IMG/VR virus record: IMGVR_UViG_3300017755_000065
Coordinates: 1 to 28,811 of that record
Origin: a virus
Reading direction: 5' to 3' (one strand)
Length of the DNA stretch: 28,811 nucleotides
Shown here: positions 1,112 through 27,754 of the stretch, piece by piece
Position numbering within the stretch: position 1 is the stretch's first letter
How the letters are laid out: every line of letters starts with the position of its first letter
Made by a program: the position numbers and the translations under genes
Notes under the pieces: model-generated
Told to the model about the DNA's origin: nothing
Seen by the model: the letters and a program-made list of their open reading frames with translations, nothing else
The model's database searches: none

Positions 1112-2546
1112 TTTACCTTTAACTAGAGGCGCGCGTGTAGTTAAGTTTATTGAAAAGTTTTGCGTACACGGTGAGGGCGACTTCTTTGGCGAGCCTTTTA
1201 AATTAGATAACTGGCAAAAAGCAATCATTTATGATTTATACGAAGTTAATGAAGATAAAAGCCGTAGATATAGGGAGGCGTTAATTGGACTTCCGAAAGG
1301 AAACGGAAAAACTGCTTTAGCAGCCGCTATCGGCCTATACGAGCTTTTGGGTAGTGGGGTTACTAGCCCTTTAGTAGCAGTAGCAGCCGCTAGTTATGAG
1401 CAAGCTAACTTAGTTTTTGGAACTATGAAAGTAATGTGTGATGAAAGTCCTATATTAAAAGATATGGTCGAAACTTTTGAAAACGAAATACAACTTAAAA
1501 ATAGTCCGGGTAGAGCTTACCGCGTAGCTGCTAAAGCAGGTACTGCCGACGGTGGCCGTAATAGTTGCTTAATAGCAGATGAAATACACGAGTGGGCAAA
1601 CATAAACCAAGAAAGAGTACATTATGTTTTGTCTAATAACACCGCTAAACGTAAAGACGGTTTAGTTTTAAATATTACTACGGCAGGTTATAACTTAGAT
1701 AGTTTAGCCGGGCGTTTATATCAGCGCGGTCTTAAAAAGGAAACAGGCGAAAATGATGACCCGGAGTTTTATTTTAAATGGATAGGCGCTAAAGACGGCG
1801 ACGATTTTGAGGATAAAAAGTTGTGGTCGGACGTTAACCCGGCAGTCCAAAACGATTGGTGGCCTTTAGAAAATCTTAACCGTAGATTTAAAAGCTTACC
1901 TTTACACGAGTTTCAAAGATACCATTTAAACCAATGGACGCGTACGGAAGAAGAAAGTTGGTTACCGCCTAACGCGTGGGATAATTGTTTCGGGGAGTTT
2001 GAATTAAACCCGGACGTTGAAACTTATTTAGGAGTAGATATGGCGCTGCACCACGATAGCGTAGCTATAGTACACGGGCAAAAAACTAAAAACGGTACCG
2101 TAATTTTAGATAGTAAGATTTGGCACCCGGATGATTACGACGTAATGGACATTCAAGAAATAGAAACTTATATTTTAGAATTATGTAAAACCTTTAACGT
2201 GAAAGAAGTAGCATACGACCCTGCTTTTTTTGAACGTAGCGCGCAAGTATTATTAGATAATGGGGTGCCTATGGTCAACTTTCCGCAAAGCCACGCCCGA
2301 ATGGTTCCTGCTTGCGGTAATGCTTACGAGATGATTGTAAATAAAAAAGTTTTACATAAAGCTACGGCAACGTTTACTGATCAGGTGCTTTCGGCTGCAC
2401 AAAAAATTACAGATAGCGGTTGGCGTTTAAGTAAAGGCCGAAGTAAACGAAAAATAGACGGTGCTATAGCTATGGTTATTATGTTAGATAGAATAACTGC
2501 GCCGATAGTTGATGACGCGCCTCCCGTCGCTATAATTAATTTATGA
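1098..2546 (+). CDS. terL: Terminase large subunit (HK97-type, Terminase_1 family)
   Basis: 482 residues. ATP-driven packaging motor and DNA-cutting nuclease. The Walker A motif GLPKGNGKT is at residues 64-72 and the Walker B motif LIADE at 158-162. The RNase H-like nuclease domain shows its acidic positions in YLGVDMALHHD (about residue 314), VAYDP (about 374) and IDGAIAMVIMLDR near the C-terminus. Length and order fit HK97-like large terminases. The start overlaps the upstream zinc protein by 14 bases. The stop (TGA) overlaps the ATG of the small membrane protein, indicating coupling through to the portal gene. Confidence 0.95.
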   Translation: MKKNNLPLTRGARVVKFIEKFCVHGEGDFFGEPFKLDNWQKAIIYDLYEVNEDKSRRYREALIGLPKGNGKTALAAAIGLYELLGSGVTSPLVAVAAASYEQANLVFGTMKVMCDESPILKDMVETFENEIQLKNSPGRAYRVAAKAGTADGGRNSCLIADEIHEWANINQERVHYVLSNNTAKRKDGLVLNITTAGYNLDSLAGRLYQRGLKKETGENDDPEFYFKWIGAKDGDDFEDKKLWSDVNPAVQNDWWPLENLNRRFKSLPLHEFQRYHLNQWTRTEEESWLPPNAWDNCFGEFELNPDVETYLGVDMALHHDSVAIVHGQKTKNGTVILDSKIWHPDDYDVMDIQEIETYILELCKTFNVKEVAYDPAFFERSAQVLLDNGVPMVNFPQSHARMVPACGNAYEMIVNKKVLHKATATFTDQVLSAAQKITDSGWRLSKGRSKRKIDGAIAMVIMLDRITAPIVDDAPPVAIINL

Positions 2547-2689
2547 TAAATAAAAATAATATGACAACGCTAGCGGAAGTTATAGGCGCCGCCCTTATAA
2601 TTTACGGTGTATATACGTTTAGTATCGGCCTAGCTTACGTAGTAGCCGGTAGTTTTTTTATAGTAGGAAGTTATTTAATTAGTAAATGA
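2543..2689 (+). CDS. Small two-helix membrane protein
   Basis: 48 residues bridging exactly from terL to the portal gene, with ATGA overlaps at both ends (2543-2546 and 2686-2689). These double overlaps are the main support for a real gene. Two hydrophobic segments (AEVIGAALIIYGVYTF and LAYVVAGSFFIVGSYLI) separated by a short turn predict a helical hairpin in the membrane. Tiny membrane proteins at this place occur in other HK97-like phages. Function unknown; not enough is visible to call it a holin. Confidence 0.75.
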   Translation: MINKNNMTTLAEVIGAALIIYGVYTFSIGLAYVVAGSFFIVGSYLISK

Positions 2690-3894
2690 GTTTATTTAAT
2701 CGAGAAAATAGGGACGCAGCTTTAGGTAATTTAGCCGAGCTATTAAACCTCCGGGACGGTGGACTTTACAACTATACGGGCGAAAAAGTAAATGAACTAA
2801 GCGCGTTAGGTATAAGCCCTGTATTAAGTGCTATATCTCTTATAGCCGATAGTATAAGTATCTTACCTATAAAAACTATTAGATACGACGGCGATAAGAA
2901 AGTTTTTACGGAAAAACCTAAAATATTTGATAAACCTAACGTAAACCAGACTATTTTTGAAGTAGTACACCAAATTATTACTAGTTTATTAATGCACGGT
3001 AATAGTTTTATATTAATTGATAAAGATAGACAGGGCAGGCCTATAGCTATGACGCCTATACATAGTGATAAGGTAGTCGTAGAAATGCACAACGGAATTA
3101 AAACCTACACTATAGGAACGCAAAAAAATAAAAGAATTTTAACCGACGATAATATACTTCATTTAAAATGGTTTAGTTATCCGGGTAACTTAGTAGGGGT
3201 TAGCCCTTTAAGAGCTAACGGTAATATGTACGGTTTAGCTTTAGCAATGGAAAGACATATAGCGCAATTTTATGGGCAAGGCGGAACACCTAGTAGTATT
3301 TTAGAAACCGACCGTGATTTAACTAGCGAGCAAGCAAAGTTTTTGCAGGAAAATTGGTCTAGTAGCCATAACCGTAACCGTAAGCCTGCGGTTTTAACCG
3401 GCGGGCTTAAATGGAAATCTATAAGCGCGGGCGCGGGCGATGAGTTAATACAGGCTAGAGAGCAAATTGTAAATGAAGTAGCCCGTATATTTAGAGTACC
3501 GGCTCATTTAATAAATTCTAAAGACGGTAGTAACGTTTACAGTAATATTGAAAGTAACGGGTTAGCTTTTATTAGACATACCTTATTGCCTTACATAAGA
3601 AGAATAGAAGACGCTTTAAGTACTTTATTACCGGGTAAGCAAGTAGTTAAACTAGACACCGAAGAATACGCTAGGGGCGATTTATTTAGTAGGGTACGTA
3701 CATTTCAAGTTGCTATATCTAGTGGCTTAATGACACCTAACGAGGCTAGAAATAGATTAGATTTAGAGCCTTATGAAAACGGCGACAATTTTTACTTAGG
3801 ATTACAAGGAGCGCCGGTTGATCCTGCCCTTGCACCTTTAGGTAATGATGAACACGACCCTAAAAAAGATTTATTAAACCCGGAAACAGAATAA
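2686..3894 (+). CDS. Portal protein (HK97 family)
   Basis: 402 residues. Forms the dodecameric ring at the capsid vertex through which DNA enters and to which connector and tail attach. Recognisable family features include the N-terminal LSALGISPVLSAISLIADSI helix, HGNSFILIDKDRQGRP, the wing segment ILHLKWFSYPGNLVGVSPL, and the stem/clip segment AREQIVNEVARIFRVPAHLI with NVYSNIESNGLAFIRHTLLP. Position between terL and the prohead protease is canonical. It starts within the ATGA overlap with the small membrane gene. The C-terminus carries the usual acidic tail. Confidence 0.95.
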   Translation: MSLFNRENRDAALGNLAELLNLRDGGLYNYTGEKVNELSALGISPVLSAISLIADSISILPIKTIRYDGDKKVFTEKPKIFDKPNVNQTIFEVVHQIITSLLMHGNSFILIDKDRQGRPIAMTPIHSDKVVVEMHNGIKTYTIGTQKNKRILTDDNILHLKWFSYPGNLVGVSPLRANGNMYGLALAMERHIAQFYGQGGTPSSILETDRDLTSEQAKFLQENWSSSHNRNRKPAVLTGGLKWKSISAGAGDELIQAREQIVNEVARIFRVPAHLINSKDGSNVYSNIESNGLAFIRHTLLPYIRRIEDALSTLLPGKQVVKLDTEEYARGDLFSRVRTFQVAISSGLMTPNEARNRLDLEPYENGDNFYLGLQGAPVDPALAPLGNDEHDPKKDLLNPETE

Positions 3895-3897: not shown

Positions 3898-5412
3898 ATG
3901 GCCGTAGATTTAACCGCACCTGCGTTTATGAAAAAGAATATGCAACGCGGGTTAGATAACCTTAATAAAGCAGGTAGTGGTTTAACACCTAAAACAATAC
4001 GCGACGCTAGAAGTATTATTAGCAGCGGTAAGGTAAGCCCGGCTAAAGCTAAGTTAATGTTTCCGTGGCACGCTAGACACCAAAGCGATTTAAAAAGAGA
4101 AAAAAGTAACCCTAACGACCCTAAAACTTGGCGCGGTAGCGACGTAGCTTTTTTATTATGGGGTAGTAATCCGTGGACTAATCCAATGCAAGCAGGCGAG
4201 TGGGCAAAGCGTAAAGTTGAACAAATAAATAATGAAGAAAGAAATCTTGATCAGCGCGCACCTAGTGAGCCGGCGCCTAAAAAAGACCAAATTAAAGGTA
4301 GCGATAAAAATAAAAAGGGTAGTGCTAGCGGTAAGAGTAATAATATTAGTTTTAACGAAAGTACTACTAAGGCTATAAAAACAATAGTAGCCGAGCATAA
4401 TGACATTGTTAAAGATATGGCTAGTTGGCGTAAGTTAAGAATACCTACTGCTAAAGCAGTAGTAAGACGAGGTTTTGGTGCTTATAGCGGTTCGCATAGA
4501 CCCGGCGTAAGCAGGCAAGCGTGGGGTTTAGCTAGGTTAAAAGCTTTTAGTTATTTACTACGTAACGACCGACCAAAAAATACTAAATACGTAGGCGACA
4601 ACGATTTACTTCCGGAAAGCCACCCACGTTTTAGTAAGAAAGAAAAAAAGAGCGACCTTTTTTATGACATAAAGGGCGACGCTATGTCATTAACAAGTAA
4701 TATATTAAATAATAAGGTTAGGATTAATAACGTGAATAAAGAAAAAGAAAACCGTAGCTTTAATTTAGCGAATGTAGAAATAAGAGAAAATAATGACGGG
4801 GAGTTGTCTTATAGCTTTAGCGGTTACGCTAGTGTATTCGACAAGCCTTACGGAGTAAGAGATAGTAAAGGAACTTACACCGAAACAATTAAACCCGGCG
4901 CATTTAAAAAAACACTTCAAGAACAAGACGACGTTAGGTTTTTAATTAATCACGACGGTATACCTTTAGCACGTAGTAGCAGCGGTACCTTAAAACTAGA
5001 AGAAGATGAATACGGACTATTTGTTCAAGCAGATTTAGACGCTAATAATCCTAAAGTCGCTGAAGTTGCTAGCGCTATGAAACGTGGAGATTTAAACGAA
5101 ATGTCTTTTGCTTTCGCAGCTATACGCGATGACTTTAGTGGCGAAAAAAGAGATGTACAAGAAGTAAGACTATTTGATGTAAGCGTCGTAACCTACCCGG
5201 CTAATAGTTACGCAGGCGCTACTTTAAGAGGACTAGATATAAGCGAGAATTTAAAAGAACTAGTCGAAAGTAGAAATAGCGATAAAGCAGTCGAAGTTTT
5301 AGAGGAAATTATTACTAAGCTAGATACACCTAGCGAGGAAAATGAGCGCTCTAAAAGTAACCCGAAATTAGAAATCTTAAAAATTAAGATGAAAAAAGAC
5401 GGTTTACTCTAA
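3898..5412 (+). CDS. Head-morphogenesis domain fused to HK97-type prohead protease
   Basis: 504 residues in two parts. Residues 1 to about 240 contain two conserved phage modules: one with SGKVSPAKAKLMFPWHARHQ ... FLLWGSNPW ... EWAKRKVEQI, and one with IVAEHNDIV ... AVVRRGFGAYSGSHRP ... WGLARLKAF ... DNDLLPESHPRF. The linker between them is rich in K, S, N and P. From about residue 290 comes a peptidase U35-like prohead protease: SFSGYASVFDKPYGVRD, the histidine in FLINHDG, the serine in LNEMSFAF, and FDVSVVTYPANSYAGA. It would cleave capsid and scaffold segments during head maturation. An internal ATG at 4684 has an AAAGGG seven bases upstream, so the protease may also be made as a separate protein of about 242 residues. 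Confidence 0.9.
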   Translation: MAVDLTAPAFMKKNMQRGLDNLNKAGSGLTPKTIRDARSIISSGKVSPAKAKLMFPWHARHQSDLKREKSNPNDPKTWRGSDVAFLLWGSNPWTNPMQAGEWAKRKVEQINNEERNLDQRAPSEPAPKKDQIKGSDKNKKGSASGKSNNISFNESTTKAIKTIVAEHNDIVKDMASWRKLRIPTAKAVVRRGFGAYSGSHRPGVSRQAWGLARLKAFSYLLRNDRPKNTKYVGDNDLLPESHPRFSKKEKKSDLFYDIKGDAMSLTSNILNNKVRINNVNKEKENRSFNLANVEIRENNDGELSYSFSGYASVFDKPYGVRDSKGTYTETIKPGAFKKTLQEQDDVRFLINHDGIPLARSSSGTLKLEEDEYGLFVQADLDANNPKVAEVASAMKRGDLNEMSFAFAAIRDDFSGEKRDVQEVRLFDVSVVTYPANSYAGATLRGLDISENLKELVESRNSDKAVEVLEEIITKLDTPSEENERSKSNPKLEILKIKMKKDGLL

Positions 5413-5483: not shown

Positions 5484-6815
5484 TTGAAAAAATTAATTGA
5501 ATTAAGGGACGCTAACGCTGTTGAACTTGATACTTTAGTTACTGCAATGGAAGAAATGGAAACAGGCGAAGAACTCGACGCAAAGTTGGAGCGATCAAAT
5601 GTTTTAGTTTCCGAAATAAAAGAACTAGACGAAAAAATCAAGGCTGACGCAGATATGCGCGCTACCTTAAAAGAAGTTGAGGAAAGTAGAAAATCTTTAG
5701 AGATTAAAGATGAAGACATTTCCGAAACACGAATGGAAGTTAAAGAGCCAGATATGTATCGTAAGGATGCTGAAAATTCATTTTTTAATGATATGTATGA
5801 CGCTAAATTTAACCAAAATTATGACGCACAAAAAAGATTATCCGAGCACCAAGATGTCCATAAAAGGGATGTCGGTACCGGAGCTTTTTCTGGCCTCGTA
5901 GTTCCGCAGTACCTCGTTGACGACTATGCACCGCTTGCAAGAGCAGGGGCAGCAGTTTATAACGCGTTACCAAAAAGAGAATTACCTGCATTTGGAAACA
6001 AAGTAGAAATCTCAAGAATTACAACCGGCTCTACTGCAGCTGAACAGGCAACTGAAAACTCAGCAGTTTCCGAAACAAATATGGACGACACTTTATTAAC
6101 AGTTAATGTTGATACAATTGCCGGTCAACAAGATGTTTCAAAACAAGCATTAGATAGAGGCGGGCAACCGGGTTTCAATCTCGAAAATATTATTTTTCAA
6201 GACCTACTCGGCGCATACTATACAAAGCTAGATAACTTACTGATCAACGGTTCAGGTTCCTCCGGGCAACCACTTGGAATAAAATCCGTTGGCGGAATAA
6301 ATACAGTGACTTACACAGACGCAAGTCCTACAGTCGCTGAACTTTATCCTAAGTTAGCCGACGCTTTACAAAAAGTTAATGCAAATAGATTTGCACCTGC
6401 TAACGCAATCATAATGCACCCGAGACGTTGGGGTTTCCTAACTGCCGGGCTTGATAGCTCAAACAGGCCATTAATCGTACCGGCCGGAAATAATCCGGAT
6501 AACGCCATTGGCGTAGGGGACGCTGCTAAATACGGAAACGTAGTTGGTAACATTCTCGGAGTACCGGTAATTACAGACGCTAACATTCAAACGGATGCTG
6601 GATCAGGCAACGACGAAGACATAATCTTAGTCGTAAAGGCCGACGACCATATCTTAATGGAGCAAGACGTCTTTACTGCAAAGTTTGAAGAAACTAATGC
6701 AGGTTCATTAACTACTAAATTAGTAGTTTACGGATATGTTGCATTCGCAAGCGGTAGATACCCTGCGGGCACAACAATGATTAACGGAACAGGGTTGATA
6801 ACACCAACCTTTTAA
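5484..6815 (+). CDS. Major capsid protein (HK97 fold)
   Basis: 443 residues. Residues 1 to about 105 are charged and coiled-coil-like (MEEMETGEELDAKLERSNVL and following), matching the scaffolding delta domain removed by the protease. The HK97-fold part begins near TGAFSGLVVPQYLVDDYAPL and includes ALPKRELPAFGNKVEISRI, DRGGQPGFNLENII and NGSGSSGQPLGI, the P-domain segment IIMHPRRWGFLTAGLDS, and the C-terminal VVKADDHILMEQDVFTAKFEE ... VVYGYVAFASGRYPAG. The start is TTG, with AAAGGA ideally spaced upstream. Codon choice differs visibly from neighbours: more GCA, TCA/TCC, ATC and CTC, and less AGT and TTA. Confidence 0.95.
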   Translation: MKKLIELRDANAVELDTLVTAMEEMETGEELDAKLERSNVLVSEIKELDEKIKADADMRATLKEVEESRKSLEIKDEDISETRMEVKEPDMYRKDAENSFFNDMYDAKFNQNYDAQKRLSEHQDVHKRDVGTGAFSGLVVPQYLVDDYAPLARAGAAVYNALPKRELPAFGNKVEISRITTGSTAAEQATENSAVSETNMDDTLLTVNVDTIAGQQDVSKQALDRGGQPGFNLENIIFQDLLGAYYTKLDNLLINGSGSSGQPLGIKSVGGINTVTYTDASPTVAELYPKLADALQKVNANRFAPANAIIMHPRRWGFLTAGLDSSNRPLIVPAGNNPDNAIGVGDAAKYGNVVGNILGVPVITDANIQTDAGSGNDEDIILVVKADDHILMEQDVFTAKFEETNAGSLTTKLVVYGYVAFASGRYPAGTTMINGTGLITPTF

Positions 6816-7123: not shown

Positions 7124-7756
7124 ATGGCTATTACTAACGGGTATATAACCCAAAACGATTTAAAAGAGTTTGTAGGTATACCTACTAGCGATACTGCGGA
7201 CGACGACTTACTAGATAACGCTATAAATGGTGCTAGTAGGCAAATAGACGCGTTTTGCGGACGTAAGTTTTACGCTGACGGATCAACTAGCGCTCGAGTT
7301 TTTTTTACTAATGATTTTTATAGATTACCAGTCGATGATATTTCAACAGCTACCGGGTTAGTTATTAAATATGATGACGACGACGACGGTACTTATGAAG
7401 TAACCGTACCTAGTAATGAGTTTCAACTTTTACCTATAAATGGTGTTGTAGGGGGTATAGAGGGTAGCCCTTACTACATTATTCAATTAAATAGCAACGG
7501 TAGTTACGAGTGGCCTATAAGTAATACTAGTAATAGACCTTACGCTGAAATTACGGCTAATTGGGGTTACGCTAGTACACCCGAGCCAATAAAATACGCT
7601 ACGAAAATGTTAGCTAGTGAACTTTTTGCTATGCGCAACGCACCTTTAGGAGTAGCAGGCGTAGGCGACTTTGGGGTAGTAAACGTTCAACAAAACAGAG
7701 AAGTAACTCGTTTATTACAACCATTTCGTAAGGCTAGCGTTTTAGGGGTAGTTTAA
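7124..7756 (+). CDS. Head-tail connector / adaptor (HK97 gp6-like)
   Basis: 210 residues. The N-terminal all-helical segment (TQNDLKEFVGI, DDDLLDNAINGASRQIDAFCGRKFY) followed by a beta-rich middle (LPVDDISTATGLVIKYDDDD, FQLLPINGVVGG, YAEITANWGYASTPEPIKYA) and a final helix (ATKMLASELFAMRNAP) is the usual pattern of gp6-type head-tail adaptors that dock on the portal. Position after the capsid gene agrees. The stop overlaps the next start (TAATG at 7754-7758). Confidence 0.85.
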   Translation: MAITNGYITQNDLKEFVGIPTSDTADDDLLDNAINGASRQIDAFCGRKFYADGSTSARVFFTNDFYRLPVDDISTATGLVIKYDDDDDGTYEVTVPSNEFQLLPINGVVGGIEGSPYYIIQLNSNGSYEWPISNTSNRPYAEITANWGYASTPEPIKYATKMLASELFAMRNAPLGVAGVGDFGVVNVQQNREVTRLLQPFRKASVLGVV

Positions 7757-8181
7757 TGGCCGCCCTACACCAAGTCCGGGACGGTATTAAAACTACTTTA
7801 GAAAATAACATAAGCGGTTTAAGAGTTTACGACGTAGTTCCAGATTATGCTTTAAACTTTCCGGTAGCAATAGTTTTACCGGTAAATATTAATTTTAATA
7901 TAGCTATGCAAAGAGGAACTGATCAGTACACTTTTGACATTTTAGTAGCCGTAGAGCGTGGTAATAGCCGTACCGCTCAAGATAAACTCGACCAATATAT
8001 AACAGGGCAGGGTAGTAGTTCACTAAGGCAGGCTATATTTAATAATAGAACGTTAGGCTTAGACAACACCGACGCGACTATAACGGGCGTAAGTAATTAC
8101 GCAGCGGACGTTAATTTAAACGGTATAGACGCAATAGGTGCGAACGTAAGCCTCGAAGTTTATACTAAAGGAACAAGTTAA
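7756..8181 (+). CDS. Probable tail terminator / tail completion protein
   Basis: 141 residues. Begins with a helix (HQVRDGIKTTLENNI) followed by GLRVYDVVPDYALNFPVAIVLPV and a strand/helix pattern (DQYTFDILVAVERGNSRTAQDKLDQYI). Between connector and tail tube genes this layout matches tail terminator-type proteins that cap the tail tube at the head end. The assignment relies on synteny and fold pattern, not on a catalytic motif. Overlaps both neighbours by one base. Confidence 0.65.
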   Translation: MAALHQVRDGIKTTLENNISGLRVYDVVPDYALNFPVAIVLPVNINFNIAMQRGTDQYTFDILVAVERGNSRTAQDKLDQYITGQGSSSLRQAIFNNRTLGLDNTDATITGVSNYAADVNLNGIDAIGANVSLEVYTKGTS

Positions 8182-8384
8182 TGCCTAAATTTAAAATAAT
8201 AGGAACAAAAAAAATTGACGGTAAAGAGCCGGGTAGCACTATAACTATAGAGGACTTAGATAAAATAATTACACTAACTAAGGCCGGGCATATTGCAGCG
8301 ATTAGTAAAAAAGAAAATTTAAAAAAAGCAAAAAAAGCGCTTGATCAAGGAAATAAAAAAGATGAGGTTAAAGATGTCAAATAA
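8181..8384 (+). CDS. Small lysine-rich protein, head-tail region
   Basis: 67 residues. The first 45 look like a small beta-type domain (MPKFKIIGTKKIDGKEPGST ... ITLTKAGHIAAI); short proteins of this kind (MPKF/Y...G..PG) occur next to tail tube genes in other phages. The C-terminal third is a charged Lys-rich tail (KKAKKALDQGNKKDEVKDVK). It starts in a TAATG overlap with the preceding gene. Function unknown. Confidence 0.65.
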   Translation: MPKFKIIGTKKIDGKEPGSTITIEDLDKIITLTKAGHIAAISKKENLKKAKKALDQGNKKDEVKDVK

Positions 8385-9772: not shown

Positions 9773-9838
9773 AATGTCATATTACGCCCGCGCTGATCAG
9801 CGCGACTTAAAATTTAATTATTAAGTAAAGGAGTTAAA
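9771..9838 (+). promoter_or_regulatory. Leader of the second tail tube gene: repeated element, CTGATCAG palindrome, strong SD
   Basis: Contains TTAATGTCATATT (9771-9783), which recurs at 14682-14694; TTACGCC (9782-9788), shared with the capsid leader; the perfect 16-bp palindrome CGCGCTGATCAGCGCG (9789-9804); an AT-rich run; and TAAAGGAGTTAAATTG, ending in the TTG start codon. Because it directly follows a terminator, it must contain or allow a new transcript start, or the terminator must be leaky. Confidence 0.65.
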
Positions 9839-11249: not shown

Positions 11250-13453
11250 TGGCAGGGCAAAATACTAAAACGTTAAGGTTTGAGTTTTTAGCAGATACTA
11301 AAAAGTTTTTAGGCAACATAGGTAAAGTAGGTAAAAAGTTCGGCGACTTGTCAGCCGATATGAAAAAGACCGGCGATACAATTAATAAAGCCGTAGCCGG
11401 TATAGGTATAGCTGCGGGTGCAGCAGCCGGGCAATCTTTAAGAGCTTTTAGAGATTTTGAAACCGGTATGAATGAGGTTTTTACTCTTTTACCGGGTACT
11501 ACGCAAGAAGCTTTTGACAATATTAATGCAGATGTTTTAAAGCTATCTAAAGAAATAGGTAGATTACCCGAAGATATTATCCCGGCTTTATATGACTCAT
11601 TATCCGCAGGAGTACCTCCGGGCAATGTTTTTGATTTTTTAGAAACCGCTAATAAATTAGCCGTAGGTGGAGCTACCGAACTAGGTATAGCCGTTGACGG
11701 TTTAACTACCGTAGTAAACGCTTTTGGTAGTGATGTAATTAGCGTAGGGCAAGCGTCCGATATTATATTTACCGCCGTAAAGGGTGGTAAAACTACCGTA
11801 GAGGAACTATCTAAAGCTATGTTCAACGTCGCACCTATTGCAGCGTCTATGGGTATAGAATTTGGTAACGTAACGGCTGCGGTAGCAACCTTAACCGCAT
11901 CGGGTACTCCTACTAGTGTTGCTATGACGCAGATTAGAGCTGCATTGTCAGAGCTTGCTAAACCTACTAGTAAAATATCTAAGTTATTTACAGAATTAAC
12001 CGGGCAAAGTTTTGAGGAATTTATAGCTAGCGGTGGCGACTTAAAAGAGGGTTTTGACATTATTAAAAAGGGTGCCGAGTTAAATGGTAAGCCTTTAGCA
12101 GAATACGTAGGGTCGGTAGAGGCTCTAGGTGCTATTCAAACTCTTACGGGTAAAGGTAGCGAAAAATTTGCTAGCGAAATAGTAAATGCTGCTAATGCAG
12201 TAGGAGCAACCGACGCTGCTTTTGAACAAGGTTCGCAGGGTATAGGATTGGTTTTAGAAAAACTAAAAGCTAGTTTTCAAGTATTACAAATAGAAATCGG
12301 ACAAAAATTAGCGCCGATACTTATAGACGCTATAGATAATATTAAAAAAAGATTTGATGAAATAAGGCCGGGTTTAGAAAACTTCGTTAAAAATGTTAAA
12401 AGCTTTTTTTCCTCTGATCAGGTCGTCAATACTATAAGTAAATTAAAAGACGCTTTTAAAAGTTTGCAGGAACGTTTAGCGCCTGTAGTAGATAAAATAC
12501 AAGCATTTTTTAAAGCTAACCCTAAAGTAGCGTTTACGTCGTTAGCGGTCGTTATAGGCGGTATATTACTAGCTAGCGTACTTTCTATAGCTAGTGCTTT
12601 TGCAGCTCTATTTAGCCCGGTTACGCTCATAATAGGTGCTATAGCAGCCCTTGCCGGAGGTTTTAGGTTCGCTTACGACAATGTTGAAGTGTTTAGAAAT
12701 TTTGTAGATAATAGTATTTCGTTTTTAAAAAACTTATTTAGTAACTTTATTAACTTTTTTAAAAGCGACGGTTTCGTAGGTGCATTTAATAAAGGATTAG
12801 ATTTCGTTAAACTACAGTTTGAAAACTTAAAAACAGTATTTAAAGGGGTAGTAGATTTTCTTAAAGCATTATTTACCGGCGACGTATCAGGCGCCGTAGA
12901 TAGCCTTAAAGATATATTTAAAGGTTTACTAAGTTTCTTTAAAAATAATTGGAACTTATTTGGTACCTTAAAAGATGTTTTTCTTAATGCCCTTAGTAAA
13001 ACTAAAGACTTTTTAGTTCCTAAATTAAAAGAATTTGGAAAAAACTTTACTGAAACTATTAGTACGGTTTTAAAAACTAGTGCGGGCGTAGTTATGGAGG
13101 GCGTTAAGTTCGTATTTAATAAAGTTATAAATAAAATTAATGGTTTCATAAATGACTTAAATAGTGGTTTAGGTTTTAGTTTTTTCGGAATAGACATTGA
13201 TCCACCAGATTTACCTAATATCCCTCAATTGGCCGAAGGTGGTATTGTAACCAAACCTACGCTCGCTATGATTGGCGAGGCGGGTACGGAGGCAGTAATA
13301 CCGTTACCCTCGAGAGTTGGCGGGGGTTTAGGCCAACAACCTACTATTAATTTAACCGTAAACGCCGGCTTAGGTACCGACGGGGCAGAAGTAGGCCGTA
13401 TAATAGTCGAACAAATAGAAAAATATAACAGGCGTAATTTAAGGATTGTCTAA
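11249..13453 (+). CDS. Tail tape measure protein (TP901-like core)
   Basis: 734 residues. Sets tail length and is ejected with the DNA. The core pattern is clear: FRDFETGMNEVFTLLPG, DALYDSLSAGVP-like segment (ALYDSLSAGVPPGN), GLTTVVNAFGSD, SKAMFNVAPIAASMGI and VAMTQIRAALSELAKP within residues about 65-235. A hydrophobic stretch near residues 425-480 (SLAVVIGGILLASVLSIASA, then LIIGAIAALAGG) predicts membrane insertion. The C-terminus has AEGGIVTKPTLAMIGEAGTE, a recurrent tape-measure motif. Using about 0.15 nm per residue, a rule of thumb, the tail would be about 110 nm. Confidence 0.95.
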   Translation: MAGQNTKTLRFEFLADTKKFLGNIGKVGKKFGDLSADMKKTGDTINKAVAGIGIAAGAAAGQSLRAFRDFETGMNEVFTLLPGTTQEAFDNINADVLKLSKEIGRLPEDIIPALYDSLSAGVPPGNVFDFLETANKLAVGGATELGIAVDGLTTVVNAFGSDVISVGQASDIIFTAVKGGKTTVEELSKAMFNVAPIAASMGIEFGNVTAAVATLTASGTPTSVAMTQIRAALSELAKPTSKISKLFTELTGQSFEEFIASGGDLKEGFDIIKKGAELNGKPLAEYVGSVEALGAIQTLTGKGSEKFASEIVNAANAVGATDAAFEQGSQGIGLVLEKLKASFQVLQIEIGQKLAPILIDAIDNIKKRFDEIRPGLENFVKNVKSFFSSDQVVNTISKLKDAFKSLQERLAPVVDKIQAFFKANPKVAFTSLAVVIGGILLASVLSIASAFAALFSPVTLIIGAIAALAGGFRFAYDNVEVFRNFVDNSISFLKNLFSNFINFFKSDGFVGAFNKGLDFVKLQFENLKTVFKGVVDFLKALFTGDVSGAVDSLKDIFKGLLSFFKNNWNLFGTLKDVFLNALSKTKDFLVPKLKEFGKNFTETISTVLKTSAGVVMEGVKFVFNKVINKINGFINDLNSGLGFSFFGIDIDPPDLPNIPQLAEGGIVTKPTLAMIGEAGTEAVIPLPSRVGGGLGQQPTINLTVNAGLGTDGAEVGRIIVEQIEKYNRRNLRIV

Positions 13454-14685: not shown

Positions 14686-14730
14686 TGTCATATTGCGCTG
14701 ATCAGTAAGAAAAGGAAATAAAATAAAAAT
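14682..14730 (+). promoter_or_regulatory. Repeated intergenic element upstream of tail tip genes
   Basis: TTAATGTCATATT (14682-14694) followed at once by GCGCTGATCAG (14695-14705), then the purine-rich SD region AAGAAAAGGAAATAAAA before ATG 14731. The first 13 bases are identical to 9771-9783, where the same CGCTGATCAG core follows a few bases later. It is non-coding at both places, which makes a regulatory role likely. Confidence 0.6.
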
Positions 14731-16599: not shown

Positions 16600-17067
16600 A
16601 TGGCACATTTTGCATTTATAAACGAAGAAAATATAGTCGTCGAAGTTATCACGGGTAAAAATGAAGATGAGGCTACGCCTGACGGTTTTAGTAATTGGGA
16701 AGAATATTACGAAACTAAAAGAGAGGGTTTAACTTGTAAACGTACTTCTTTTAATACTTACGATGATGTTTATTTAGATAATACAACAGGCGAAGAAGAC
16801 GCTGATCAAAGTAAAAAATTTAGAGGAAACTATGCAGGAATAGGAAGTATTTATAAACCTACTGAAAATATTTTTACACCGCCTAAACCTTATGAAAGTT
16901 GGATTTACGACGAAACTATTGGAAACTTAGGTAATTGGAAACCACCAATAGATAAACCTACTTCTTACGACGAAGAAACAGAAAATTATTTGTGGAACGA
17001 AGAAGAAGTACAATGGGATTTATATAGGTGGAATACTGTTACTGAAATATTTGAAAAAGTAGAATAA
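16600..17067 (+). CDS. Conserved phage protein, MAHF-type, tail tip region
   Basis: 155 residues. I choose ATG 16600 rather than an upstream in-frame ATG at 16534, because MAHFAFINEENIVVEVI is the typical start of a family common in cyanophages and other marine phages and the start sits just after the preceding TAA. The family signature NYAGIGSIYKPTENIFTPPK with PYESWIYDETIGNLGNWKPP and a YLWNEEEVQWDLY end is visible. Acidic, many Trp/Tyr. Often annotated in tail fiber clusters; precise role unknown. Confidence 0.75.
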   Translation: MAHFAFINEENIVVEVITGKNEDEATPDGFSNWEEYYETKREGLTCKRTSFNTYDDVYLDNTTGEEDADQSKKFRGNYAGIGSIYKPTENIFTPPKPYESWIYDETIGNLGNWKPPIDKPTSYDEETENYLWNEEEVQWDLYRWNTVTEIFEKVE

Positions 17068-18243: not shown

Positions 18244-18455
18244 TGAAAGCACAAGTAAACCTTTCACAAATACTTCAAGGCGGTTTAGCAGCTTTAGTAG
18301 GTTGGTTATTTAAAACCGTTAACGATTTACAACAATTAGTCGCAGTATCGGAAATACAAATACAAAAACTAGAGGAAAATATAGTAGCTTTAGCATTAAG
18401 AGAACGTGAATTAAATTCTGCTATAACAGAAATCTTGATCAAGCTCGGTGGCTAA
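18243..18455 (+). CDS. Small protein with N-terminal hydrophobic helix and coiled coil
   Basis: 70 residues. The N-terminus NLSQILQGGLAALVGWLF is amphipathic to hydrophobic, followed by a coiled-coil stretch (VAVSEIQIQKLEENIVALAL). Starts in a TAATG overlap with the previous gene and ends in one with the next. Resembles short marine phage proteins of the tail tip/lysis boundary. Function unknown. Confidence 0.65.
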   Translation: MKAQVNLSQILQGGLAALVGWLFKTVNDLQQLVAVSEIQIQKLEENIVALALRERELNSAITEILIKLGG

Positions 18456-19161: not shown

Positions 19162-19431
19162 ATGACACAAATAGACCTAGATACGTTTATTACTACTAAA
19201 ATGAAATCACACCCTCGAAAATTCGAGCAAAAATACCCTAATGAAACAAAAATTATTTTAAAACTAATAAAGCAAGCATTAGATAAAAAAGGCCAAGAAT
19301 TTGGTTATAAATATAATTATTTAGCTATTACAGAATACTGCGTCGAGGTTTTAGGTTTTACTATGGTAAGTAAAGAGGGTTTACGAAAAATAATTGCACG
19401 TATTGCTAAAGAAAATAGTTGCGAGCTATGA
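19162..19431 (+). CDS. Small basic protein upstream of metallophosphatase
   Basis: 89 residues, largely helical and basic (FITTKMKSHPRKFEQKYPNE, ILKLIKQALDKKGQEFGY). The last third, YLAITEYCVEVLGFTMVSKE with GLRKIIARIAKEN, could be a helix-turn-helix. Overlaps the metallophosphatase start by four bases (ATGA). Strong SD and own candidate promoter. Perhaps a DNA-binding partner of the next gene; unproven. Confidence 0.65.
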   Translation: MTQIDLDTFITTKMKSHPRKFEQKYPNETKIILKLIKQALDKKGQEFGYKYNYLAITEYCVEVLGFTMVSKEGLRKIIARIAKENSCEL

Positions 19432-20639
19432 ACTTCGACGATTATATAAAAAATAGAGAAGACGTACCTACTACTAACGGTAAAACCCCTAAAGCTAGCC
19501 CGGACTGGATGCCCGGAGTAGAAATGAAAAGCGGTAAAGGTAGTATAACTACTAAAGCTATACCGCAAGGCAGCCCTAATTGGAACGAATGGATAGATTT
19601 TTGGCTAGGCGAGGGCGCTAGTAAAAACTTTTACGTACGTGAAGATGAGCCTGTTAACTTTCGTACTTGGCAGGGTTGGGGTAAAGAGGGTATACAAAAC
19701 CTTTATTATTTTAAGGCTAACCTATACGCGCGTAAAGATATGGGTTACGAAGATAAAGATTTAAAAAAGCTAGTTAGTAACGCTAAACGTAAAAAGCCCG
19801 CTGATCAGCGCAAAAGTAAAAATAAAAAAGCTTTTGTAATATGTATGTCGGATTGGCAAGTCGGCAAAGAGGGTACGGAAAATATGTTAGATAGATATTA
19901 TGACGGCCTTAATCGTATAGCCGAACAAATAAAGTTTCTTAAACGTAAACATAAAGACCTAGATAAGTTAATTATTGCGGGATTAGGCGATTTAGTCGAG
20001 TCGTGCAGTGGCCACTACTCGATGCAAACTTTTACGACCGTGCTCGATGAACGTCAGCAAAAAACACTAGCCCGGCAGATGTTATTAGACGCCTTTAATA
20101 GATTTAGTAAAGACTTTAACGAAGTATTAGGGCTATGCGCTTTAGGAAATCACGGTGAAAAAAGAATAGGTACTAAAGCATATACAACTTTCGGGGATAA
20201 TAAAGACGGTGAGTTATTTGATGAGGTAGCGCAGGTTTTAGCAGCTGATCCTAGTAAAAAGCACGTTAAATTTACTATACCGGGTAATAGCCTAGCGTAT
20301 AGCGTAGAAGTTTTACCGGGTACCGTACTAACGCTAGCACACGGCCACCAAGCTAAACGTGGAACGACACCGGCCGCCCGTGTAGAGAATTGGTTTAATA
20401 AAATGGCTAGTAAGCAAAGTAAAGGCGGTTTTTACGCTACTAATGTTTTATTAGTAGGACATTACCACCACCATTGGAGCAAAGAAAACGAACGTTTACT
20501 TTTAGGAACTACGACCATAGATGACGGTAGCCAATGGTTCGAGGAAGGTGGCGGGGATAAAAGTTTACCCGGCATAACTACCTTAGTTTTACATAGTAAT
20601 GAAGATTTAAGAAAGTGGAGTGATATAGAAATATTATGA
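19428..20639 (+). CDS. Calcineurin-like metallophosphoesterase
   Basis: 403 residues from ATG 19428 (four-base overlap); a TTG nine bases earlier is the alternative start. The first 130 residues are Trp-rich and basic (WIDFWLGEGASKNFYVRE, RTWQGWGKEG), resembling a nucleic-acid-binding domain. The phosphoesterase motifs follow: CMSDWQVG (141-144), GLGDLVE (187-191), LGNHGE (240-244), LAHGHQ (304-308), VGHYHHHW (344-349). The first is DWQ instead of the usual DxH. Comparable proteins in actinophages lie near lysis or DNA-metabolism genes and are presumed nucleases/phosphatases. It overlaps the endolysin gene by four bases. Confidence 0.82.
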   Translation: MNFDDYIKNREDVPTTNGKTPKASPDWMPGVEMKSGKGSITTKAIPQGSPNWNEWIDFWLGEGASKNFYVREDEPVNFRTWQGWGKEGIQNLYYFKANLYARKDMGYEDKDLKKLVSNAKRKKPADQRKSKNKKAFVICMSDWQVGKEGTENMLDRYYDGLNRIAEQIKFLKRKHKDLDKLIIAGLGDLVESCSGHYSMQTFTTVLDERQQKTLARQMLLDAFNRFSKDFNEVLGLCALGNHGEKRIGTKAYTTFGDNKDGELFDEVAQVLAADPSKKHVKFTIPGNSLAYSVEVLPGTVLTLAHGHQAKRGTTPAARVENWFNKMASKQSKGGFYATNVLLVGHYHHHWSKENERLLLGTTTIDDGSQWFEEGGGDKSLPGITTLVLHSNEDLRKWSDIEIL

Positions 20640-21409
20640 GTACTAGACGCGGAAGTAGTAAGTGGTACCTAGAGCATTGGAAACACGCTTTAGGCAACCA
20701 AGAAGATTTAATAATAATGAATTTTAACGGTACGGGTAGGGCGCGTATAAATAAAGAAGTTTTACCTGCCTTTACATTGTTAAATATGTGTTTAAAAGAC
20801 GACGAATATATAACGCAAAAAAAAACTACGGGCGGTTTTAATTATAGGAAAATAGCGGGTAGCGATAGATATAGTTGCCACGCCTATGGTTTAGCCGTAG
20901 ATATTAATTGGCAGCTTAACCCGGTTACTAGGGACGGAAGTATTAAAACGAATTTTCAAGATAGCACGATTAATAAAATATTAAATATTAAAACGCAAGA
21001 CGGTTTACCTATTTTTAGGTGGGGCGGTAACTATAACAGTTACAAAGACCCTATGCACTTTGAAATATTTGTAACACCGGAAGAACTAAGTAAAGGAATA
21101 ATTAGAGAAAACTTTGATCAGCGCGAATATATTAAGTTAGGTTTATCTACTAAACCTTTACGTAAGGGCGATAAAGGTACGGGCGTAGCATATATACAAC
21201 AACTTTTAAACGAGGTTATAAATGCTAAGTTAGTAGCCGACGGCGATTTTGGAAACTTAACGCAAGCTAGTGTTTTAATATTTCAAAAAAAAGCAGGTTT
21301 AGTAGAAGACGGTATTGTCGGAAGTAATACCTACGCTAAAATTATGGAGTTTAAAAATGCTAAGGTTATAAAACGAAAGGAAAAAAATGTCAAATACGAA
21401 ATCGAGTAA
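20636..21409 (+). CDS. Endolysin: M15 peptidase plus peptidoglycan-binding domain
   Basis: 257 residues. The N-terminal M15-type domain has the zinc ligands in YSCHAYGLAVDIN (H82, D89) and DPMHFEI (H141), the SxHxxGxAxD / DPxHxE signature of D-Ala-D-Ala carboxypeptidase / L-Ala-D-Glu endopeptidases. Residues about 172-240 form a PG_binding_1 domain (LRKGDKGTGVAYIQQLLN, DGDFGNLTQASVLIFQKKAG, DGIVGSNTYAKI). It cuts peptide cross-links at the end of infection. No signal peptide, so it depends on the holin encoded next. The C-terminus overlaps the holin gene. Confidence 0.92.
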   Translation: MSTRRGSSKWYLEHWKHALGNQEDLIIMNFNGTGRARINKEVLPAFTLLNMCLKDDEYITQKKTTGGFNYRKIAGSDRYSCHAYGLAVDINWQLNPVTRDGSIKTNFQDSTINKILNIKTQDGLPIFRWGGNYNSYKDPMHFEIFVTPEELSKGIIRENFDQREYIKLGLSTKPLRKGDKGTGVAYIQQLLNEVINAKLVADGDFGNLTQASVLIFQKKAGLVEDGIVGSNTYAKIMEFKNAKVIKRKEKNVKYEIE

Positions 21410-22343: not shown

Positions 22344-22462
22344 TGAGTGATCAAGAACAATATATAAACGCATTAAAAAGCTGGGTTAAAGGTGGTAAAG
22401 AATATCCATTAGAAAGTTACTTAGTAAATAAATGTGATTGTGGCTGTACTGAAAGGGGTTAA
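22343..22462 (+). CDS. 39-residue protein with CxCxC end
   Basis: ATG in a TAATG overlap with the previous gene, SD GAGG eight bases upstream. It starts MSDQEQYINALKSWVKGG and ends CDCGCTERG, three cysteines in five residues, a possible metal site. One of several micro-proteins in this early stretch. Confidence 0.55.
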   Translation: MSDQEQYINALKSWVKGGKEYPLESYLVNKCDCGCTERG

Positions 22463-22615: not shown

Positions 22616-22757
22616 AAAAGTTTTTTTAGTCTTTAGTTATAATTTTTTAACATACCTAGAGATTAAGATAGACGAGCTTATTTGGAAAGTACTAGATAAG
22701 TTAAACACTAATTACGAAAAGAAAGAGGTAAAAAAGTGGAAAATAAAGAAAGACTAA
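22605..22757 (+). CDS. Possible small basic protein (TTG start)
   Basis: An open frame runs through the otherwise uncovered stretch 22616-22735, from TTG 22605 to TAA 22757 (50 residues). The sequence reads like a protein (IKKVFLVFSYNFLTYLEIK, IDELIWKVLDKLNTNYEKK) with a hydrophobic/amphipathic start and a basic end. The start is uncertain: no ATG is available, and only a GAAG lies upstream. It overlaps the next gene by 22 bases. Confidence 0.4.
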   Translation: MRIKKVFLVFSYNFLTYLEIKIDELIWKVLDKLNTNYEKKEVKKWKIKKD

Positions 22758-23233
22758 TTATGAAACAGGTTAGCTTAAAAGCTGCTACCCGTTTAGTAAA
22801 TGCTAAAAGCCCTAGCGAATGCGATAGCTTAGGTTACGCGGAAGAAGTAGTAGCAGTAGCTACCTTTTTTAATGAATGGCTATTAGAGGGCGCTGATCAG
22901 GTTATTACGGCTAGTAAACCTAGTAGCGCGGGTAATGGTGCGGTTTTTGAGCCTAAGTGTCCGGGATGCAGTAGTTTTGTTTGGGATAACCGCGAAACCG
23001 CCTCCGGTATGCAACCCTTATGGCGTTGTAAAAATGAAGATTGTACTAGCGGTAACTTTAGTAAAAAATATAATAAGCAAATGGCGTGGGCTAGTTGGGA
23101 GGCCGACGAATTTTCTAATTTAGAAAGACAATTTTTATCTAATAACGAAAAAGAAAGTACTACTGATTTAATAGATGAGCCTCAAATAAAAGATGAGGAA
23201 GAAATCGTAGACATAACGGTAGCACCGTTTTAA
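22736..23233 (+). CDS. Zinc-ribbon phage protein
   Basis: 165 residues from GTG 22736, which has SD AAAGAGG; ATG 22760 is the alternative. Helical N-terminal part (KAATRLVNAK, GYAEEVVAVATFFNEWLLEG). The zinc ribbon CPGCSSFVWDNRETASG ... WRCKNEDCTSG follows (two CxxC/CxxxxC pairs with the WDNR motif common in phage DNA-metabolism proteins), then an acidic tail (LIDEPQIKDEEEIVDITVAPF-like) as in single-stranded DNA-binding partners. It lies immediately upstream of replication-type genes. A role in replication or recombination is inferred. Confidence 0.7.
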   Translation: MENKERLIMKQVSLKAATRLVNAKSPSECDSLGYAEEVVAVATFFNEWLLEGADQVITASKPSSAGNGAVFEPKCPGCSSFVWDNRETASGMQPLWRCKNEDCTSGNFSKKYNKQMAWASWEADEFSNLERQFLSNNEKESTTDLIDEPQIKDEEEIVDITVAPF

Positions 23234-23571
23234 TGACTAAAAACGAATTTGCTAGCAACTTAAATTGGGCTAACATACGTTGGCCTAATTTAAACCTTAC
23301 TAACGATAGTTTAAATTCGTTATATGAAGACTTTAAGGGTTTTAGTAGCAATAGTTTATCTAAAGCCCTAAAGCTTTTATTTAATAACGGTAATACTTTT
23401 TTAGAGTGGCCTAAACTATTACAACTAACTAAAGATATGTATAGCGACGAGTTACTAGATAGACCACGCCTTGATCAGCCGAAATACGAAAACGGTTTGA
23501 AAGATTATCTAAAAGAAAATAATTATAAAAATATAAAAGACGCTATAAAGCATAGGAGCATTAATGACTGA
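23233..23571 (+). CDS. Unknown protein of the replication region
   Basis: 112 residues, starting in a TAATG overlap with the zinc-ribbon gene and overlapping the winged-helix gene by eight bases. Rich in N, L and W (NLNWANIRWPNLNLTNDSLN at the start), mostly helical (LSKALKLLFNNGNTFLEWPK). No recognised motif. Coupling to its neighbours suggests a replication accessory, but nothing in the sequence proves it. Confidence 0.65.
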   Translation: MTKNEFASNLNWANIRWPNLNLTNDSLNSLYEDFKGFSSNSLSKALKLLFNNGNTFLEWPKLLQLTKDMYSDELLDRPRLDQPKYENGLKDYLKENNYKNIKDAIKHRSIND

Positions 23572-24280
23572 AAAAATAAGAGTAAATTACGACATACCCA
23601 CTTTTACAATAGTACCGCATTGGGTAGCCGATTTAGTTAAACCTACCGAGCTTGCAGCTTTTGTAGTTTTAGGTAAATACGCTGATAATGTGACTAAGGA
23701 ATGTTGGCCTAGTTTAAATACTATAGCTAAAGATTTAGGTCGTAGTAAAACGGCTACTATAAGCGCAATTAAGGGTTTAGAAAGTAAAGGCGTATTAAAG
23801 ATTACAAAACGTAGAAATACTAAAGGCGATTGGGATAGAAATCACTATACATTAATAATTAATGAGGGTAGTAAAGAAAACTTGACCACCCCTAGTAAAG
23901 AAAACAAAACTACGGGTAGTAACGAAAACTTAACTCTAACTAGACCTAATATAACTAAACCTATTGAACTATATAGTCGGGATATACAAACACAATATAA
24001 AGATATGATTGTCGAAGTATGTAGCTTACAAAAAATAACTCAAAGAATGTGGGGGCAAATAGAAAACACGGCTAAACAATTATTTGACGCGGGCGTAACT
24101 GTAGATGAAATACCTATATTAGCTAAAAATATAGTTTTAAGTTATGGCGAAAGTAGTTTAACCCACCGTAGCTTGCCTAGTCATACCGAGCTAATACAGG
24201 GGGCTAAAACCCGTAAACCTAAAGATTTTAAAAAGGCGCTTGATCAGAACAATTTAGAAAGGTGGGCTAATGAGCAATAA
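23564..24280 (+). CDS. Winged-helix replication initiator-like protein
   Basis: 238 residues. Residues about 20-85 form a winged HTH: PTELAAFVVLGKYAD, WPSLNTIAKDLGRSKTATIS, AIKGLESKGVLKITKRR with wing DRNHYTLII, as in HTH_36-type phage/plasmid replication proteins. A polar T/N/K-rich linker (about 105-135) leads to a helical C-terminal domain (YKDMIVEVCSLQKITQRMWG ...). It would bind an origin or recruit the host helicase. No polymerase or helicase gene is in the window. The C-terminus overlaps the next gene by 11 bases. Confidence 0.72.
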   Translation: MTEKIRVNYDIPTFTIVPHWVADLVKPTELAAFVVLGKYADNVTKECWPSLNTIAKDLGRSKTATISAIKGLESKGVLKITKRRNTKGDWDRNHYTLIINEGSKENLTTPSKENKTTGSNENLTLTRPNITKPIELYSRDIQTQYKDMIVEVCSLQKITQRMWGQIENTAKQLFDAGVTVDEIPILAKNIVLSYGESSLTHRSLPSHTELIQGAKTRKPKDFKKALDQNNLERWANEQ

Positions 24281-26044: not shown

Positions 26045-26473
26045 ATGTTGGATTTAAGCGAGGCGCAGATTGTAGAATTACTTAACCGTATAGAATTTAG
26101 GGGCGGTAACTTTATAAAAACCGCTGATCAGTACGAACATTACGACGCCGAAAACTTTGACAATATTGTTGAAATAAAGATACGTTATCAAGATTATGAT
26201 AAACACATAATTGAACGCTTTAAATACGAACGTAACATAGAACATTCATTAAATACCGGACGTAGATTTTATTACGTTGTAAATTACAATGAGTATTTAT
26301 ACGTATGGGACATAAATTATTTAGATAGTATTAACTATAATTATTATTGGAAAACTAAAAAGCTAGCTAAAACTACTTACTTTAAAAATAATAATGAGAT
26401 ACCTAAAGTAGTAGGTTACTTAGAAAAACATTTTGCTTTAATTATAAATTTAAAGACCGCCGAATTAATTTAA
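26045..26473 (+). CDS. Probable PD-(D/E)XK-fold nuclease
   Basis: 142 residues. YDAENFDNIVEIKIRY gives a D-x(n)-E-x-K arrangement (D34 or D39, E43, K45), followed by alternating strands (RRFYYVVNYNEYLYVWDIN) as in VRR-NUC/holiday-junction-type or restriction-like folds. Many Tyr and Asn residues. Directly after the methylase-like gene with one base between. Could be a Holliday junction resolvase, a host-DNA nuclease or a restriction partner; motif evidence only. Confidence 0.5.
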   Translation: MLDLSEAQIVELLNRIEFRGGNFIKTADQYEHYDAENFDNIVEIKIRYQDYDKHIIERFKYERNIEHSLNTGRRFYYVVNYNEYLYVWDINYLDSINYNYYWKTKKLAKTTYFKNNNEIPKVVGYLEKHFALIINLKTAELI

Positions 26474-26663: not shown

Positions 26664-26667
26664 AGTG

Positions 26668-26680
26668 TATAATAAAATTT
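26668..26680 (+). promoter_or_regulatory. Candidate leaderless promoter
   Basis: Consensus -10 TATAAT at 26668-26673 is followed by only seven bases before ATG 26681, so transcription should begin at or next to the start codon. There is no SD (the spacer is AAAATTT). The -35 region overlaps the terminator loop and is weak. Leaderless mRNAs are frequent in Actinobacteria. Confidence 0.6.
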
Positions 26681-27085: not shown

Positions 27086-27106
27086 ATAACTGACTAAAGT
27101 TAGCAT

Positions 27107-27754
27107 ATGGAATGGCTTAACAGGGCTGCGTGCAAAGATTTAGACACAAATATATTTATAAACCCTAGCCGTGAAAAATACACTGATCAGGATTTATGGG
27201 CTACTAATCTAATATGCCGGGAGTGTCCGGTAAATATAAAATGTTTAACTAAGGCATTAGACGACGACTTAGAGTATGGCCTATATGGTTTACCGGAAAG
27301 AGTAAGGCGCCGTATTAGAAATAAAGATAATTTAAAAGCTTATATGGTTAATACGTTTAAAACTATAGACGTAATAGACCCTACGTTTAATAAAGAGGGT
27401 AAGCTAACTAAAAAACGTTGCCTTAGATGTCATAGATTTGTTAAAGGTTATAGCAAAGATAGTGCTAACTGGGGCGGGTTTAACCATATCTGCGTTAGCT
27501 GTTATATGAATACTAAAGATAAAAAGCGGGTAGACAAACTATTAGATAGAGATAAAGCTAGTCAATCTATGCCTATATTTGACCATTACGGCACCTTAGA
27601 GAGTAAAAAGTGTACTAAATGTAAAAAAAGAAAGTTAGCAGATAATTTTAGTAACCGTAAAGCAGGTATAGGAGGTAAAACCTCGTGGTGTAAGAAGTGT
27701 ACGTTAGCTAACTTAAAAAAGTGGTTAGCGGAAAAAAAGAAAAATGAGCAATAA
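27107..27754 (+). CDS. whiB: WhiB-like protein fused to two zinc-finger modules
   Basis: 215 residues. The N-terminal WhiB-like domain has C9, C37, C40 and C46 (C-x27-C-x2-C-x5-C), the four ligands of the [4Fe-4S] cluster. YGLYGLPERVRRRI then follows in place of the usual G(V/I)WGG turn and basic helix. Two similar zinc modules follow: G(K)L-x-K-K-R-C105LRC108 ... C129VSC132, and GTLESKKC169TKC172 ... W-C195KKC198, a form seen in phage endonuclease-VII-like and other DNA-binding proteins. WhiB proteins control transcription through sigma factors in Actinobacteria. Normal WhiB proteins are around 80-130 residues, so the C-terminal extension is unusual. Confidence 0.85.
   Translation: MEWLNRAACKDLDTNIFINPSREKYTDQDLWATNLICRECPVNIKCLTKALDDDLEYGLYGLPERVRRRIRNKDNLKAYMVNTFKTIDVIDPTFNKEGKLTKKRCLRCHRFVKGYSKDSANWGGFNHICVSCYMNTKDKKRVDKLLDRDKASQSMPIFDHYGTLESKKCTKCKKRKLADNFSNRKAGIGGKTSWCKKCTLANLKKWLAEKKKNEQ

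Follow-up and report, generated by a model that had tools for sequence, protein, structure and literature searches.

Evenly spaced GATC-core palindromes in a tailed phage, with flanks that switch between close relatives

What does it mean that a perfect octamer palindrome, CTGATCAG, recurs along a phage genome of about 30 kb? The question is posed by IMG/VR record IMGVR_UViG_3300017755_000065 (positions 1-28811), a stretch of 28,811 nt that was analysed whole and is called the window here. It is a tailed phage, with genes for TerS, TerL, portal, S78 protease, major capsid, tail, tape measure and endolysin proteins as well as replication-initiator-like, WhiB-like and HNH genes. An earlier reading of its letters, hereafter the original prediction, had counted ten copies of the palindrome and attributed them to binding by a dimeric protein, to a modification site or to a signature of the host. 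Our analysis reveals that CTGATCAG is the variant that one lineage uses of a broader GATC-core palindrome system, whose two flanks switch together between relatives while the position is often kept.

All ten exact copies were recovered, starting at 2377, 7919, 9793, 12414, 14612, 14698, 19801, 22893, 26124 and 27183, and five of them (9793, 14698, 19801, 22893 and 26124) read CGCTGATCAG on the + strand, as had been claimed. The accompanying expectation of about 0.3 copies proved too high, as Markov models of order 1-3 give 0.03-0.07 and dinucleotide shuffles a mean of 0.04, with none of 100 shuffles exceeding one copy. Eight copies are genic and two intergenic (9793 and 14698), in agreement with the original prediction, and its remark that glutamine is always encoded by CAG within the motif also holds, in that 8 of 8 genic copies read NCT-GAT-CAG; CAG makes up 42 of the 263 glutamine codons in the window's genes. 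The codon-shuffle check that it had proposed was run in three forms, 500 shuffles each, exchanging synonymous codons gene by gene, exchanging them genome-wide or reordering the codons. These yield 0.13-0.77 genic copies against the 8 observed, and at most 4 in any of the 500, so a codon or dipeptide artefact is rejected. Aspartate-glutamine pairs number 20 against 17 expected; GAT-CAG is used in 12 of the 20, and T precedes all 16 pairs that have GAT. The enrichment is thus confirmed, and the palindromic octamer is over-represented genome-wide, genes included.

The enriched unit is wider than the octamer alone. The hexamer TGATCA occurs 21 times in the window, compared with 2.1-2.3 expected, among a total of 35 GATCs, and a GATCAA or GATCAG half is present at 34 of these 35. 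GATC as a whole is scarcer in the genes than codon shuffles predict (31 versus 47-50), and GATC outside TGATCA is depleted to 13 where about 42 are expected. Nearly all of the window's sites are genic.

Absence from close relatives had been named in advance as evidence against the palindrome's significance. Relatives with TerL proteins 82-91% identical to that of the window instead hold other GATC-core palindromes, which strengthens the case. The top palindrome of G004 is TTGATCAA (17 copies versus 0.26 expected), that of G011 is CTGATCAG within the 14-bp palindrome ATTCTGATCAGAAT (15 versus 0.03), and that of G008 is ACGATCGT within GACGATCGTC (8 versus 0.18). G024 has a weaker TAGATCTA (13 versus 3.4), and G006 carries the asymmetric TAGATCAA at 22 of its 76 GATCs. 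The same palindrome classes recur in relatives represented by the right half of the genome, and the 10-100 fold enrichment of palindromes persists under codon shuffles. Judged by information content, the motif spans about 8-10 bp in the window, 8-12 bp in G004, 14 bp in G011 and 10 bp in G008. A scan of other viruses for the long G011 motif turned up almost only single copies outside the phage family.

Genome alignment of the window with G004 gives 15 shared GATCs. Seven of these are CTGATCAG in the window, and in G004 four read TTGATCAA and three CGGATCAA. The right flank AG of the window becomes AA in G004 at 9 of 9 sites, against a background G to A rate of 0.13. Measured against rotated controls, site positions coincide between the window and G004 (6 within 10 bp versus 0.2 expected, p = 3e-4), between the window and G011 (7 within 100 bp, p = 0.002) and between G011 and G008 (4 within 40 bp, p = 0.0025). 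No such coincidence was found when the window, G004, G011 or G008 was compared with G024; G006 and G024 have sites in common. Ahead of genes 9839 and 14731, the intergenic DNA contains a site of the phage's own motif in each of the window, G004, G011 and G008. The copies of the octamer, followed by the remaining TGATCA cores, are as follows.

2377-2384, no strand: CTGATCAG copy 1, in the TerL gene; G004 has CGGATCAA.
7919-7926, no strand: CTGATCAG copy 2, in gene 7756-8181; G004 has CGGATCAA.
9793-9800, no strand: CTGATCAG copy 3, intergenic, upstream of the major-tail-protein gene at 9839; own-motif sites there in G004, G011 and G008.
12414-12421, no strand: CTGATCAG copy 4, in the tape measure gene.
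14612-14619, no strand: CTGATCAG copy 5, in gene 13453-14685, close to its end.
14698-14705, no strand: CTGATCAG copy 6, intergenic, upstream of gene 14731; own motifs there in G004, G011 and G008.
19801-19808, no strand: CTGATCAG copy 7, in the exonuclease gene; G004 has TTGATCAA, G006 TAGATCAA.
22893-22900, no strand: CTGATCAG copy 8, in open reading frame 22736-23233; G004 has TTGATCAA, G024 TAGATCTA, G006 TTGATCTA.
26124-26131, no strand: CTGATCAG copy 9, in gene 26045-26473.
27183-27190, no strand: CTGATCAG copy 10, in the WhiB-like gene, about 77 bp in; GATC there also in G004, G006 and G011.
872-877: TGATCA core, as TTGATCAA.
4248-4253: TGATCA core, as TTGATCAG.
6241-6246: TGATCA core, as CTGATCAA.
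8342-8347: TGATCA core, as TTGATCAA; likewise TTGATCAA in G004.
16085-16090: TGATCA core, as CTGATCAA.
16803-16808: TGATCA core, as CTGATCAA.
18436-18441: TGATCA core, as TTGATCAA.
21115-21120: TGATCA core, as TTGATCAG; G004 has TTGATCAA.
22348-22353: TGATCA core, intergenic.
23472-23477: TGATCA core, as TTGATCAG.
24241-24246: TGATCA core, as TTGATCAG; G004 has GTGATCAA.

The sites are also spread along the genomes with unusual regularity. When palindrome spacing was compared with uniform placement, none of 20,000 simulations was as even as the 15 sites of G011, and significant evenness was likewise found for the 21 TGATCA sites of the window (p = 3.5e-4), the 17 palindromes of G004 (p = 0.004) and the 8 of G008 (p = 0.01). 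The palindromes of G024 are not evenly spaced (p = 0.75), and the window's ten CTGATCAG copies taken alone are not significantly so (p = 0.13 in a minimum-distance test). Evenness is strongest for all GATCs together: in the window, G004, G011, G008 and G014, gaps between them have a coefficient of variation of 0.35-0.58 and 0 of 2000 simulations were as even (p <= 5e-4); control tetramers in the same genomes are mostly randomly spaced. An unbiased scan of 136 strand-symmetric tetranucleotides in 50 contigs of the phage family, which are related and not independent trials, ranked GATC first, with evenness at p < 0.01 in 38% of contigs and the next tetranucleotide at 8%. In two sets of unrelated viral contigs the corresponding proportion for GATC is 2-3%, and of 18 segments from the host (see below) none has even GATC. 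It is itself unusual for a tetranucleotide to be spaced in order along a genome; the same scan detected little if any such order in unrelated phages or the host, and literature searches yielded no earlier report of GATC spacing in phages. Much of the evenness can be explained by requiring a minimum distance between sites, set at the 5-10% quantile of gaps, and a shortage of long gaps persists in several genomes after this rule is applied (p 0.002-0.1).

The palindromic sites, joint switching of halves, kept positions and even spacing favour the part of the original prediction that invoked a dimeric binding protein or a modification. Its suggestion of a packaging or partition factor fits poorly if a single site is meant, because there are 21-35 sites over the whole genome. 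The account we tentatively prefer, while holding it somewhat short of probable, is that the sites act in cis, scattered over the genome at regular distances, that they are read by a phage protein particular to the lineage, likely a methyltransferase encoded at the left end, and that they label phage DNA. About 20-40 GATC-core palindromes or near-palindromes, genic and intergenic, lie at regular intervals of roughly 0.7-1.4 kb along a linear genome of about 30 kb, and a phage protein reading both halves of the symmetric site would recognize the flanks of the GATC core. As the specificity of this reader drifts, sites would acquire new flanks and GATCs with other surroundings would disappear. The expected contexts are CTGATCAG for the window and the contig L005, TTGATCAA for G004 and the ATTCTGATCAG type for G011. 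Methylation of the sites by a ParB-like methyltransferase, whose gene comes first at the left end, could provide the label, which might serve for self-marking, for protection from a GATC-directed nuclease or for control of strands or replication.

The window itself starts inside a gene resembling pyridoxal-phosphate (PLP)-dependent enzymes, with the candidate reader just outside.

1-352, + strand: PLP-dependent-enzyme-like gene, cut, 3′ part; the candidate reader gene is just upstream, outside the window.

L005, which is 99.6-99.8% identical to the window over their overlap, extends further upstream. Its positions 171-1493 hold a gene of 440 aa in which a ParB-like N-terminal part is combined with a DNA methyltransferase bearing a TCPPY motif, and the product, a predicted N6-N4-type DNA methyltransferase, is our leading candidate for the reader. 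An AlphaFold model of this protein (mean predicted local distance difference test score 73) gives only a generic class I methyltransferase fold. Several members have homologous left genome ends, which lead either to the methyltransferase gene or straight to TerS, and the motif-bearing close relatives whose sequence includes the left end carry this ParB-like gene. Bearers of the gene have 0.7-3.3 GATCs per kb with preferred flanks. Members without it (G024, L014, L016, L021 and L082) have 5.3-7.2 per kb and no even palindromes. On a TerL tree the latter form one clade inside the bearers, which, given the outgroup, indicates a single loss of the methyltransferase, and the subclade that lost the gene has also lost the palindrome pattern.

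Elsewhere in the family the same ParB-like N-terminus is found in fusions with different, variable methyltransferase parts. At the left ends of L024, L025, L035, L045, L047, L049, L050 and L058-L060, an N-terminus about 68% identical is joined to many different methyltransferase bodies with similar C-terminal ends, an arrangement like a specificity-swapping cassette. G008 has a second methyltransferase-like gene adjoining the ParB-type one (L094 237-869), and a second GATC context, GATCTCC, is present in G008. Two other genes were considered as partners of the motif. The helix-turn-helix (HTH)-methyltransferase gene at 27744 was rejected because it is absent from G011, and the rapidly evolving 89-aa gene at 19162 is not supported as reader, being present in pattern-free phages too; its product in the window is nearer to that of G024 (65%) than to that of G004 (53%).

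Several observations weigh against a methyltransferase as reader. The family-wide link between methyltransferase presence and GATC evenness is modest (Fisher p about 0.01, without phylogenetic correction; G014, scored among those without the cassette, carries two methyltransferase-like genes other than this one), and within the clade the link comes down to one loss event. G006 and L020 carry the enzyme gene yet show random spacing, and L027 has even spacing with no cassette copy in its available sequence. More distant homologues of the enzyme occur without palindromes or special GATC avoidance. A general rule that phages with ParB-type methyltransferases avoid GATC was rejected on these homologues, whose observed-to-expected ratio for GATC is 1.05 and in which GGCC and other words reach zero equally often. 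At 14 bp, the G011 motif is long for the target of a methyltransferase, the recognition site of a methyltransferase need not be over-represented, and avoidance of close pairs alone can give part of the evenness. That the phage family labels its own DNA, with palindrome flanks co-evolving with the methyltransferase cassette and the pair of self-mark and reader switching between close relatives, is a possibility we regard as doubtful.

A different kind of reader is suggested by the stoperators of Cluster A mycobacteriophages such as L5 and Bxb1, which are asymmetric 13-bp sites, oriented with transcription and read by the repressor of these temperate phages (PMC6550527, PMC9283540). A repressor or transcription factor could bind the dispersed palindromes and silence the genome, with switches in specificity creating new immunity groups. 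The 20-40 lineage-specific sites per genome do parallel stoperators (PMC6550527), which are likewise a few dozen dispersed sites whose consensus varies between related phages of actinobacteria; the 14-bp palindrome of G011 is typical of an HTH dimer, and two conserved sites lie upstream of genes. We nevertheless consider such operators unlikely. The sites in the window are palindromic and nearly all genic, not asymmetric and oriented, evenness is a property of GATC as a whole, and none of the Cluster A hallmarks of temperate life (integrase or parABS, immunity repressor) was recognized among the scanned proteins of the window, where small unassigned genes could hide a repressor. Chi sites, which are read by RecBCD, and DNA uptake sequences are further dispersed, over-represented short signals that vary in sequence between species; they are non-palindromic and chromosomal and have known readers, whereas the sites described here are palindromic and phage-borne.

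Restriction offers another explanation, which also appears improbable to us. A GATC-cutting host enzyme, perhaps one needing two nearby sites, would purge GATCs, leaving those that are far enough apart or that lie in contexts protected by the phage methyltransferase. Avoidance of restriction sites is established in viruses, for example in halovirus Hardycor1 (PMC7911831), and the depletion of GATC outside the motif resembles it, as do the complete lack of GATC in L065, L071 and L073 and of CATG in the window and across its clade. The GATCAA or GATCAG half at 34 of 35 GATCs and the share of evenness covered by a minimum-distance rule would also be consistent with purging. However, avoidance leaves counts at or below expectation, which is true only of GATC outside the motif and not of CTGATCAG (8 genic copies versus 0.13-0.77). 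Purging cannot make the 10-17 palindromes that stand against an expectation of 0.03-0.9, nor does it explain why positions stay while flanks switch, and close relatives free of the methyltransferase are GATC-rich. Restriction pressure may explain the loss of unmarked GATCs; new palindromes cannot arise that way.

The closest precedent is Highly Iterated Palindrome 1 (HIP1, GCGATCGC) and the alternate HIPs of cyanobacteria, over-represented 8-bp palindromes with cognate orphan DNA methyltransferases (Elhai 2015, PMC4390886). Both systems consist of over-represented octamers, one replaced by another between related genomes, and both HIP1 and the phage motifs have a GATC core. The HIP methyltransferases are cognate, whereas the ParB-like gene of the window's lineage is a candidate partner only. 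HIPs also belong to cyanobacterial chromosomes, while the sites found here are in phages of about 30 kb and are no feature of their probable Actinomarina host, have AT-rich flanks and very even spacing, and are accompanied by depletion of most other GATCs. Genome-wide switching of dispersed palindromes is a long-standing puzzle for HIP1, where DNA methylation and biased repair have been proposed. These phages show the same kind of pattern, with several specificities in close relatives, a pattern-free subclade and few candidate readers, and the question becomes testable with a few purified proteins.

By analogy with the HIP1 model (PMC4390886), biased repair or conversion at methylated GATC could turn flanks palindromic with no benefit to the phage. 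Many imperfect palindromes in the window do deviate in the outer flank only, as in CTGATCAA and AGGATCAA. This mutational drive nonetheless seems quite unlikely, as evenness and positions kept with different flanks suggest positional selection, and no very-short-patch repair gene was noticed.

The host of the phage is probably marine Candidatus Actinomarina. No record in the annotated phage collection is close to the window, TerL relatives are common among aquatic viral contigs, and a search of 84,980 genomes returned a single match, a single-cell genome of Candidatus Actinomarina at 75% identity. An actinobacterial host fits with the WhiB-like gene, and WhiB has been reported in Actinomarinales phages by earlier work. 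The alternative that the phage copies a host-wide oligonucleotide signature is highly improbable, and is refuted for the genomes searched, because all 42 genomes of the host genus (among which the phage's own host species may not be) hold 1-11 copies of CTGATCAG per 0.6-1.1 Mb, GATC in 360 kb of one host genome is neither enriched (0.8-0.9 of expectation) nor evenly spaced, close phages of the group bear different palindromes and no point in its favour was found. The CAGCTG of the 75% group was likewise rejected as the same phenomenon, since the host is also raised in CAGCTG.

Other short words show conspicuous gaps. CATG does not occur once in the window, where codon usage predicts about 38 in genes, and is also at zero in most relatives (G004, G006, G008, G011, G024, G014 and L005-L022); L063, L077 and L085 do contain it, as does the host (821 in 360 kb). 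Almost every phage in which GATC is strongly even lacks CATG. L065, L071 and L073 have zero GATC in 8-13 kb, and their relatives have 3-7 per kb. Among the TerL relatives L023-L084, TCGA, GCGC and CGCG are also often missing where more than 5 would be expected, a sign of strong and diverse restriction pressure. CCGG is enriched about two-fold over codon shuffles across the window, and the same is true in several close relatives.

Two genes at the right end of the window have composite products. Positions 27107-27754 encode a WhiB-like domain joined to a zinc-finger-rich C-terminal part that resembles the Lar-like or endonuclease VII families. The gene at 27744-28418 encodes a fusion of an HTH domain with a Trm1-like methyltransferase domain, which among the compared genomes is confined to the window and G004.

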